From positions 744,001 through 808,000 of the forward strand of contig NZ_KB908215.1 in NCBI RefSeq assembly GCF_000382365.1: a stretch of DNA of 64,000 nucleotides, in the 5' to 3' direction. The notes below the pieces were generated by a model that saw only the letters and a list, made by a program, of their open reading frames with translations, was not told the DNA's origin and ran no database searches. Positions 37,353 to 42,890 of this stretch are shown here, piece by piece. The position numbers were made by a program, and so were the translations under genes. Positions within the stretch are counted from its first letter, which is position 1; each line of letters opens with the position of its first letter. This stretch comes from Pannonibacter phragmitetus DSM 14782 (lineage in GTDB: Bacteria > Pseudomonadota > Alphaproteobacteria > Rhizobiales > Stappiaceae).

Positions 37353-37438
37353 ACATGGCCGCCCACCAATCACTCTGCGGATTATATTCACATCCCTCCC
37401 CCGCCAGCGTCCTTCAAGGCAGGACAGCTGGTGCCGGG

Positions 37439-38008
37439 ATGGTCATGAATATTCAGGAAATTCTCGCCGAGAGGTCGGTCTGGACCTCGGACTTCATGGA
37501 AGCCACCGCCCATCTTGGGGCGCATGTGGCGGAGCCGTTTCTGACGACGGTCAATCTGGTGACGATCCACCAGATGACGCGGGCGGCGAAGATCGGGCTG
37601 GTGACAGCCTGGCAGGAGGACCCCGGCCTTGCGGAGGATCTGGGGGCGAGCTGGGCGTGGAGCCTGGAGGACCGGCACTATCTGGTGCGCGCCCTGCGGC
37701 TGGAACGCGAGCGGCATCTGGGACTGAATTATTTCCCCTTCGAGGTGGATGGCATCCGCAGCCTCATCGCGGCAGCCGAATCTGCGTCCCACGGGCACCG
37801 GCATGTGCATCCGGTCTTCGTGCTCTACACCAGCTTCACCGGGGCGGAGCACCGGATGAGCGAGGGCTGCCTCTTCATCGATGCACGGCGGATGCAGGAC
37901 TTCCTGTTCAACCGCAACCGCCTGACGCTTCATCCCGCCATCGTGACACTTGAAGAAGCAAAGCATTCCGGCGCCCGGCCCTGGTACGAAATGTTCCCAA
38001 TGAAGTGA
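37439..38008 (+). CDS. Unknown protein, degenerate paralogue of the next gene
   Basis: 189 residues (ATG 37439; 37445 also possible). It aligns along its length with the next protein: NIQEILAERSVWTSDFMEA.., TTVNLVTIH, GASWAWSLEDRHYLVRALRL, FEVDGIRSLIAAAES, HPVFVLYTSF and the C-terminal PWYEMFP. In the paralogue the corresponding segments carry a plausible nuclease-type site (REDAIT, GGDWIW, VQAKKL); here Asp becomes Pro, Asp becomes Ser and QAK becomes RAL, so any such activity would be lost. I recall a similar domain, perhaps DUF6615; this is not verified. Its own promoter probably follows the groEL terminator. Confidence 0.75.
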   Translation: MVMNIQEILAERSVWTSDFMEATAHLGAHVAEPFLTTVNLVTIHQMTRAAKIGLVTAWQEDPGLAEDLGASWAWSLEDRHYLVRALRLERERHLGLNYFPFEVDGIRSLIAAAESASHGHRHVHPVFVLYTSFTGAEHRMSEGCLFIDARRMQDFLFNRNRLTLHPAIVTLEEAKHSGARPWYEMFPMK

Positions 38009-38075: not shown

Positions 38076-38624
38076 ATGTCTCTTACCGACGTTCTCAAAG
38101 ATCAGTCCACCTGGACCTACAACATCATGAAAGCCTCGTCCAATCTGGGCGAAGTCATCCGGGAAGACGCGATCACAAGCGTCAATCTGGCCGTCATCAA
38201 CGACCAGTCCACTGCCCAGAATCTCGGGCTCGGCACGACGAGCCTGCAAGGTGCCAAGCTGGAGATCGAATTCGGCGGCGACTGGATCTGGAACTACAAG
38301 GGATCGGTTCTGCTCGTTCAGGCCAAGAAACTCGATGTCGTGAACAAATTCCCCTACTACACGATCGACATCAACCAGATGAACACGCTGATTGCCACCA
38401 CGAAGAACGGTTATTTTGGCACCAGCCCGGCAATACCGTTCTACGTTTTCTACAACAGTTTCGCGGACGAGAACCCGGCCGACTTCGGCTGTACCATGAT
38501 ACATGCGACAACATTGCAATCAATGTTGGTACAGACCGGCCAGATCAATCAAAAGACCGCGCAGGTTTCTCCGTCCCAGATGCAGACTGCCGGCTGGGCA
38601 CCGTGGTGGAAGATCTTTACGTGA
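38076..38624 (+). CDS. Unknown protein with PD-(D/E)xK-like motif pattern (DUF6615-like)
   Basis: 182 residues, AGGGAG ribosome binding site. A conserved helix with E30/D31 (EVIREDAITSVNLAVI) is followed by strand EIEFGGDWIWNY (D69) and strand VLLVQAKKL (Q82-A-K84), the order and spacing seen in Mrr-like PD-(D/E)xK nucleases, where Q can replace the acidic residue. Then come INQMNTLIATT, PFYVFYNSF and PWWKIF. It is a paralogue of the preceding gene, 67 bp away. Base composition is less GC-rich than the neighbours, hinting at acquisition. Activity and role are inference; a stand-alone function in DNA or RNA binding is equally possible. Confidence 0.72.
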   Translation: MSLTDVLKDQSTWTYNIMKASSNLGEVIREDAITSVNLAVINDQSTAQNLGLGTTSLQGAKLEIEFGGDWIWNYKGSVLLVQAKKLDVVNKFPYYTIDINQMNTLIATTKNGYFGTSPAIPFYVFYNSFADENPADFGCTMIHATTLQSMLVQTGQINQKTAQVSPSQMQTAGWAPWWKIFT

Positions 38625-41768: not shown

Positions 41769-41797
41769 TTGACCCCATGCACGGTCCGTGGCATAAA
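41769..41797 (+). promoter_or_regulatory. Candidate promoter of the structured leader
   Basis: TTGACC (41769-41774), 17 nt, CATAAA (41792-41797). It would start a transcript at about 41804, just before the structured region. Confidence 0.5.
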
Positions 41798-41819
41798 CCG
41801 CCCATCATCAAGAGAAGGG

Positions 41820-41956
41820 CTGGCGCCCTCGCCAACCTGCCCGGCCGGGCAAGGTGGTCCCCGCAAAGGGATGTGGCCATGGGAAAACCCAGGGCAACCA
41901 AGCGGTCAGAATGTCAATGCGCCAGTCCTCCTCGGGCAACCGAAGGAGGATTTTTT
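41820..41956 (+). ncRNA. Candidate structured RNA leader (riboswitch-like) with terminator overlapping the ribosome binding site
   Basis: A 7-bp closing stem CTGGCGC (41820-41826)/GCGCCAG (41919-41925) encloses at least three local hairpins: ACCTGCCCGGCCGGGCAAGGT (two arms, 41835-41855), TCCC..GGGA around CGCAAA (41858-41871), and TGGG-AAAA-CCCA (41880-41891). It is followed directly by a terminator, TCCTCCT-CGG with GCAA tetraloop and CCG-A-AGGAGGA (41926-41950, one bulged A), then six T. The 3' arm contains GGAGGA, the Shine-Dalgarno of the gene starting at 41958. The CGCAAAG..GGCC layout slightly recalls c-di-GMP-I aptamers, but the fit is poor. It may instead be a free sRNA. Confidence 0.5.
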
Positions 41957-41957
41957 A

Positions 41958-42269
41958 ATGTCGAGAAGAGAGAGTAACGCCGTGAACGCATCCGTCCAGA
42001 TTGTCCTGGCCGGGGCACAGCTGAAGGACCTGGCCGCACCTGCCGCCCGTTCTTCCCTGACCGCCTCGGAATTTTATGTCCTGCAGCGCCTGCGTCAGTT
42101 GAAACTGACCGCCGCGCTCCGCCGTACACATGCGCCGCTGACCTCAGAGATGCGCAAGACAAGGGTGGAAGGGCTGATCGCACTGTGGAAAACAGGTTGT
42201 TCCAAAGCGGTCGACGAGAGCCTTTACGCCGATCTCGAGCGTCGCGCCCGGCAGACCCTTCCCGGCTGA
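41958..42269 (+). CDS. Small unknown protein (103 aa) under the structured leader
   Basis: ATG 7 bp after GGAGGA. Basic, mostly helical sequence (ASVQIVLAGAQLKDLAAPAARSSLTASEFYVLQRLRQLKLTAALRR.. and KAVDESLYADLERRARQTLPG) with a single Cys, no signal peptide and no membrane segment. No recognisable family. Its ribosome binding site is buried in a terminator hairpin, so expression should need opening of that hairpin or read-through control. It is isolated between YoaK and the convergent thioesterase gene. Confidence 0.55.
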   Translation: MSRRESNAVNASVQIVLAGAQLKDLAAPAARSSLTASEFYVLQRLRQLKLTAALRRTHAPLTSEMRKTRVEGLIALWKTGCSKAVDESLYADLERRARQTLPG

Positions 42270-42473
42270 CCCGCCGCGGAAACCTCTCCCGAACCACGCT
42301 ATTCTCACGTGCCTTGGCTGAAAAGCCTTGCGCTCCGTGCTGTTCCGCCTGCCCCAGGCAGGCCGCAAGCCGGTCAGGTCCGCCTGACCGGCTTCTTCCT
42401 TCTATTCGTCATGGCAAGACGAAAGTGGGGAGGAGTTCCCCTCTCAATGAGCCGGGTTCACCGGAGGGTGACC

Positions 42474-42890
42474 TCAGCACTCCGCCGGAACCGGACGCGG
42501 ACGGCCATCCTCGTCCACGGCGACGAAGGTAAACATCGCTTCGGTCACCTTTTCCCGCTGGCCATAACGGTGGCGCAGGGCCCAGGCTTCCATGTTGATT
42601 TCCATGGAGGACCGGCCGATCCGGCCAACGCGGGTGTAGATGCACAGCACATCACCCACATGCACGGGGCGGATGAATTTCATCCGGTCGATGGCAATGG
42701 TCACCACGCGGCCGCTGGCGCGCTGGCCGGCGGCAATGCCGCCTGCAAGATCCATCTGCGACAGCACCCAGCCGCCGAAGATATCGCCCGAAGCGTTGGT
42801 ATCGGCCGGCATGGCCATGGTGCGAAGGGTCAGGTCACCGGTTGGCTGTTCGGTTTCTGCGTCCGAAGTGGCTGTCACATGGCTCTCCAT
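42474..42890 (-). CDS. Acyl-CoA thioesterase (YciA-like hotdog protein)
   Basis: 138 residues, single hotdog domain. The catalytic segment is NASGDIFGGWVLSQMDLAGGIAA, followed by VVTIAIDRMKFIRPVHVGDVLCIYTRVGRIGRSS, as in YciA and acyl-CoA thioester hydrolases acting on short to long acyl-CoA in the cytoplasm. The C-terminus GRPRPVP is also typical. It is 21 bp downstream of the Crp/Fnr regulator gene on the same strand, so probably co-transcribed. Confidence 0.92.
   Translation of the reverse strand: MESHVTATSDAETEQPTGDLTLRTMAMPADTNASGDIFGGWVLSQMDLAGGIAAGQRASGRVVTIAIDRMKFIRPVHVGDVLCIYTRVGRIGRSSMEINMEAWALRHRYGQREKVTEAMFTFVAVDEDGRPRPVPAEC

Follow-up and report, generated by a model that had tools for sequence, protein, structure and literature searches.

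A predicted SAM-I/IV riboswitch with an apparent Shine-Dalgarno decoy before the gene of a conserved small protein in Pannonibacter

The gene of a 103-aa protein in the Pannonibacter genome studied here is preceded by a leader that, judged by its class match, is a full-length SAM-I/IV riboswitch (41800-41911), and this riboswitch very probably shuts down a single-gene transcript when S-adenosylmethionine (SAM) is abundant. The case rests on four computed results, namely the match to the riboswitch class, a pair of mutually exclusive helices, the linkage of the riboswitch to the protein, and purifying selection. The aptamer class and the dual-purpose hairpin that follows it are known; what is new is the conserved family of target proteins and a P2 strand that seems to mimic a Shine-Dalgarno sequence (SD). 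By the window we mean the whole stretch of 64,000 nucleotides that was analyzed; positions refer to it, and features lie on the + strand unless otherwise given. The host is a Pannonibacter near P. indicus (97% over the small protein), of a genus placed by NCBI in Stappiaceae, Hyphomicrobiales.

A first-pass annotation of the window had read the leader as riboswitch-like and proposed a cmscan search against Rfam, and both the reading and the search came out positively. At gathering scores, a scan of the whole window returned one match, to RF01725 at 41800-41911 (full model, 1-99; 61.8 bits against a cut-off of 41.1). On the short stretch, with matches listed up to E = 1, RF01725 was again the sole match kept, two lower-scoring overlapping matches of the same clan having been dropped. 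The conserved blocks of the model, CAUCAAGAG, CCAACCUG, CAAGGUGG and GAUG, are matched in the window's aptamer. In the cmscan alignment, helix P1 joins CATC (41806-41809) to GATG (41870-41873), with the fifth P1 pair of the model non-standard here, and helix P2 joins 41814 and 41816-41820 to 41825-41830 in six pairs with one bulged A and without an internal loop. In Weinberg et al. (2010, PMC2864571), the SAM-I/IV P2 is likewise without the internal loop found in SAM-I and SAM-IV. The window's aptamer resembles the variant described there in its full match, its P2 and its possible P3-loop pseudoknot; it differs in its target, which is a small protein of no known family rather than metA, and in its competing strand, which is the P2 5′ strand with its loop. 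The folding energy of the leader was unremarkable (z -1.5; 14 of 200 shuffles equally good), and we regard its structure as being beyond chance because the Rfam cut-off is passed and because the alternative helix described below is reached in 0 of 300 shuffles.

A pseudoknot between the P3 loop and the 3′ tail is a SAM-IV-like feature. In the window's leader, GGCCG in the P3 loop (41843-41847) can pair with CGGTC (41903-41907), with one G-T, and the two may form the 5′ and 3′ parts of such a pseudoknot. The evidence is covariation of one variable pair, the inner one, which is standard in 52 of 69 leaders (a set without L071, which could not be parsed) compared to 31.2 in shuffles, a count that 0 of 500 shuffles reach. 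Among 33 unique arm pairs, it is standard in 20 compared to 13.8 (6 of 500 reach). Leaders of the window's family alone gave no pseudoknot covariation (30 of 36, shuffles 28.3, with 89 of 500 reaching), and the outermost pair gave no signal among the 33 unique arm pairs; the remaining three pairs are nearly invariant, partly because the anchors fix them.

Upstream of the aptamer lies a promoter-like element, TTGACC-N17-CATAAA (41769-41797), with a predicted transcription start near 41804; this promoter candidate had already been picked out in the first pass, and the element is indeed present. Elements of the form TTGNNN, 16-18 nt, NATNNN at most 65 nt upstream occur before 26 of the 36 family leaders, at differing distances, compared to 112 of 1327 background stretches. 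A generic sigma-70 scan of the window did not call the element at 41769-41797 because the rule of the scan requires a T ending the -10. The small gene itself (41958-42269) is followed by a 12-bp intrinsic-terminator-like hairpin (42367-42394), and therefore it is probably transcribed alone; no operon partner was seen among the 29 loci compared. The next long open reading frame (ORF) taken as a gene (42474-42890, - strand) is convergent with the small gene, and a neighbor on the opposite strand, thioesterase-like by eye, lies downstream in 20 of the 29 loci and upstream in one. Elsewhere in the window, two neighboring + strand ORFs (37355-38008 and 38076-38624) seem by eye to encode related proteins.

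Between the aptamer and the small gene, the hairpin TCCTCCTCGG-GCAA-CCGAAGGAGGA (41926-41950) comprises 10 bp with one bulge and a GCAA loop, has a predicted energy of -16.3 kcal/mol, and is followed by six T (41951-41956), so that the whole reads as an intrinsic terminator (41926-41956). Its 3′ arm holds GGAGGA (41945-41950), the SD of the 103-aa ORF that starts with ATG at 41958. These elements agree with the first-pass annotation, and the sequence and predicted fold also bear out its proposal that one hairpin serves as both terminator and SD mask. A dual transcription and translation platform of this kind, in which the 3′ arm of a terminator hairpin contains the SD, is described by Barrick and Breaker (2007, PMC2258182), and the window's hairpin has this layout. 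The window's relatives depart from that platform in that the T run comes and goes while the SD masking stays. All 36 family leaders that were read (of the family's 86) have a hairpin whose 3′ arm carries the SD. By a count made by eye, a run of at least five T closely follows it in 25 of these and is absent in 11; in a second family, f44, the run of five T is absent in 10 of 11 leaders and present in one. Given these absences, termination is not general: SD masking is the constant function, with termination added in many leaders, the window's included. In one genus, g2 (L031, L034, L039, L041, L012, and L019), we read the start as a TTG overlapping the terminator's T run.

CTGGCGC (41820-41826) and GCGCCAG (41919-41925) had been paired in the first pass as a perfect 7-bp stem closing a domain of several hairpins. 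Both sequences are present, and their pairing appears in the ligand-free fold (centroid). The stem is not an aptamer helix, however, and clashes with P2, since 41820-41826 comprises the last base of the P2 5′ strand, the P2 loop and two bases of the P2 3′ strand. A better reading makes it the base of a competing ON-state helix, antiterminator or anti-sequester. At full length this helix spans 15 positions (41812-41826 with 41919-41933), of which 14 are paired, one as G-U, and one is an A-C mismatch; its duplex energy is -25.3 kcal/mol. The last 8 nt of the 3′ arm are the anti-SD arm of the terminator hairpin, and the arm reaches into TCCTCC, otherwise paired with GGAGGA; by computation, the full 15-nt helix and the hairpin at 41926-41950 are mutually exclusive. 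The 5′ arm GAGAAGGG, made up of J1/2, the P2 5′ strand, the P2 loop and two bases beyond, seems, from duplex energies and shuffles, to amount to an SD decoy, the P2 strand apparently imitating the Shine-Dalgarno sequence.

The helix was equaled in 0 of 300 dinucleotide shuffles of the 80 nt downstream. Its p value was at most 0.013 in 10 of 10 leaders tried from the 36 in the window's family, whose arms are nearly identical, and 0.007 in the one leader of family f32. A p value below 0.05 was obtained in just one of seven f44 leaders, in 6 of 14 metA leaders (the pattern had anchored L073 in the wrong place), in two of four other leaders (L080 was unparsed), and in 9 of 16 loci of other alphaproteobacterial families that were chosen after the helix had been defined. 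The 16 came from 28 candidates, of which 10 were missed by the pattern and two, L147 and L149, were omitted as near copies of L146; the helix was not supported in seven of them (L129, L131, L132, L137, L141, L146, and L154). Helix positions 6-13 pair in 47 of 48 small-protein leaders (the anchor missed L061), a count in which the anchor G[CT]CAG[TC]C fixes most of the 3′ letters. Because of this fixing, the only free covariation evidence is a two-sided change from G-C to A-T at one helix position in 5 of the 47 leaders, all from f44, and these five may represent one event. Within the window's family, the arms are nearly invariant, so that constraint is visible and covariation cannot be. Covariation in homologues, which the annotation had set as a check, is thus present over the 69 leaders for the pseudoknot and in the five f44 changes for the helix; it is limited, with none for the pseudoknot pair in the window's family alone. 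The ligand-free equilibrium fold places the short stem and the terminator hairpin side by side, and forcing the full ON helix gave a structure 2.8 kcal/mol worse. The ON state must therefore be kinetic or helped, and reaching it by co-transcriptional folding or with help would be the weakest step of the proposal.

In the mechanism that we propose, the transcript would begin at about 41804, nearly at the first base of the aptamer. Binding of SAM would lock the P2 5′ strand inside the aptamer, and at high SAM TCCTCC would pair with GGAGGA, the intrinsic terminator would close, and the gene would be off; transcripts escaping the terminator would have their ribosome site hidden by the same hairpin. 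At low SAM, J1/2, the P2 5′ strand and the loop (GAGAAGGGCTGGCGC), partly an SD look-alike, would instead pair with GCGCCAGTCCTCCTC, and the paired decoy would block the terminator hairpin and leave the SD free, turning the gene on. We infer the binding of SAM from the class match, and along with it the direction of the switch, the order of folding and the service of the small protein to SAM-short cells. In strand-exchange riboswitches, as covered in a review (PMC10907184), two mutually exclusive helices set the ON or OFF state and the switching sequence lies most commonly in the first helix. The proposed switch shares the pair of helices and differs from that account in that its switching sequence is J1/2 with P2, not P1, and partly SD-like; with P2 in place of the first helix, it would therefore be a variant of strand exchange.

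The small protein, which had been taken for an orphan in the first pass, proved to belong to a conserved family. Of the 87 genomes in the window's family, 86 gave a match to a 45-member profile, where "family" in our counts is a grouping of the genome collection; 35 profile members come from that family and 10 from f44, and 51 of the 86 genomes lie outside the profile. A single-sequence search found the protein in 30 of 61 genomes, counting that of the window. RF01725 occurs in the same 86 of 87 genomes, one (G013) being without both. All 86 have the protein match on the strand of the riboswitch, 35-187 nt downstream of it. Leader and small gene are thus conserved together, which the annotation had named as a point on which its reading would stand or fall. 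In an order-level sample of 297 genomes, 24 carried the protein and 47 carried RF01725; by coordinates compared by eye, the riboswitch adjoins the protein in all 24, including two genomes outside the profile (G152 and G295). Among the 385 genomes of a class-level sample, the protein matched in the window's own genome only.

The 103-aa protein is under purifying selection where tested, with dN/dS of 0.02-0.41 in 30 of 33 pairs (three pairs were not computable). A stop occurs within 28 of the 86 protein matches; in nine of ten that were read, the ORF is intact and the match merely overruns it. In one genome (G018, locus L064), the small gene is broken by an in-frame stop and the riboswitch is retained, and G013, which is without both, belongs to the same genus. 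The conserved core reads roughly L..LW..GC..A[VI]DE.LFAD...R. Searches of the 45 members against Pfam, NCBIfam, PHROGs, PADLOC, and PDB gave no consistent match, only weak scattered hits to one to three members, and such weak matches as that to Cas9 (E 0.05) were put aside as chance. We had taken the motif to be similar to that of the DUF1127 small proteins; this kinship was rejected, as 0 of 45 members match PF06568 at E 1 or better and hhalign gave a probability of 0.6% against one DUF1127 sequence found twice. AlphaFold2 models of four sequences were all helical and too poor for a fold search (mean pLDDT of 47 over the whole protein and 55 over residues 33-103), and no copy of the protein was found in phage and plasmid collections. 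The titles and abstract beginnings that were searched yielded no report tying a SAM-I/IV riboswitch to this protein. That the protein has a role in SAM shortage is our best guess, drawn from the switch alone.

Of the 95 RF01725 copies in the window's family, nine are additional to those before the small gene, and every one of these stands upstream of metA; eight leaders chosen as metA leaders from related families do so too. Of these 17 sister leaders, nine were confirmed as metA leaders by NCBIfam, with scores below the curated cut-offs, and eight by Pfam. This placement fits SAM sensing and repression. The window's genome gave no PF04204 MetA match and has a single match each to SAM-I/IV and SAM-II, with metZ downstream of the SAM-II one. 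SAM-II (SAM_alpha, RF00521) is a SAM-responsive class. The two would be alike as SAM-responsive leaders in the same cell and differ in aptamer class and target.

Among the SAM-I/IV loci elsewhere that were read, some stand before other genes. In other alphaproteobacterial families, seven loci (L127, L128, L131, L132, L136, L139, and L151) combine SAM-I/IV with an apparent SD-holding hairpin before other small genes; the products of these and of L129, L135, and L154 were scanned, and nine of the ten were without a Pfam family at E 0.01, the other being DUF3293. Multiple copies occur in G073 (three; L066) and G655 (four; L128 and L151-L153), some before differing small ORFs, and in these genomes one copy is followed by a protein that by eye is von Willebrand A domain-like. 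L154, on an Aestuarium zhoushanense plasmid (CP021116.1, 66773-66847), is SAM-I/IV-like by sequence identity rather than Rfam score (83% over 75 nt of the window's aptamer) and precedes a protein annotated as hypothetical. At L086, L087, L080, and L150, SAM-I/IV precedes a beta-eliminating-lyase gene, threonine-aldolase-like by eye; the one product of these that was scanned, that of L086, is PF01212.

Three other explanations were weighed. The terminated leader of about 150 nt might itself be the product, a small RNA made at high SAM with the small ORF secondary. A strong terminator does close the window's leader, and the switch design implies that a short RNA is released at high SAM; yet the five-T run is absent in 11 of the 36 family leaders, which keep the hairpin, and in 10 of the 11 f44 leaders, and the ORF is constrained (dN/dS as above) and always adjacent in the family. 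We consider this explanation unlikely, although such an RNA may be an extra product beside the riboswitch. Slightly less probable still is that the aptamer now recognizes a different ligand, for instance SAH or some other derivative of SAM: the match is to the class, and the downstream gene names no ligand, but the model's conserved blocks are present and the sister copies in the family precede metA. A c-di-GMP-I aptamer, to which the first-pass annotation had seen a faint resemblance, by eye, in the rough order of some short motifs, has next to no probability left, because RF01725 stands alone on the stretch up to E = 1, with no c-di-GMP match; the leader belongs to SAM-I/IV instead.

A SAM-I/IV riboswitch controlling a one-gene transcript is thus the reading that we carry forward. 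A riboswitch class of known ligand suggests when the protein is produced, namely when SAM is low, and the function of the protein is therefore directly testable; retention of riboswitch and protein together in nearly the whole family gives a handle on that function. A similar design is found elsewhere in the class ahead of small genes that look different, and the window's locus may be one of several. Tentatively, and with more doubt than confidence, we suggest that the small-protein family, made only at low SAM, regulates how SAM is used or methionine supplied, for instance through binding to a pathway enzyme or a methyltransferase, and that the same decoy-SD design commands several such proteins across Alphaproteobacteria. 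If this is true, these bacteria would possess a hidden SAM-starvation response built of uncharacterized small proteins.
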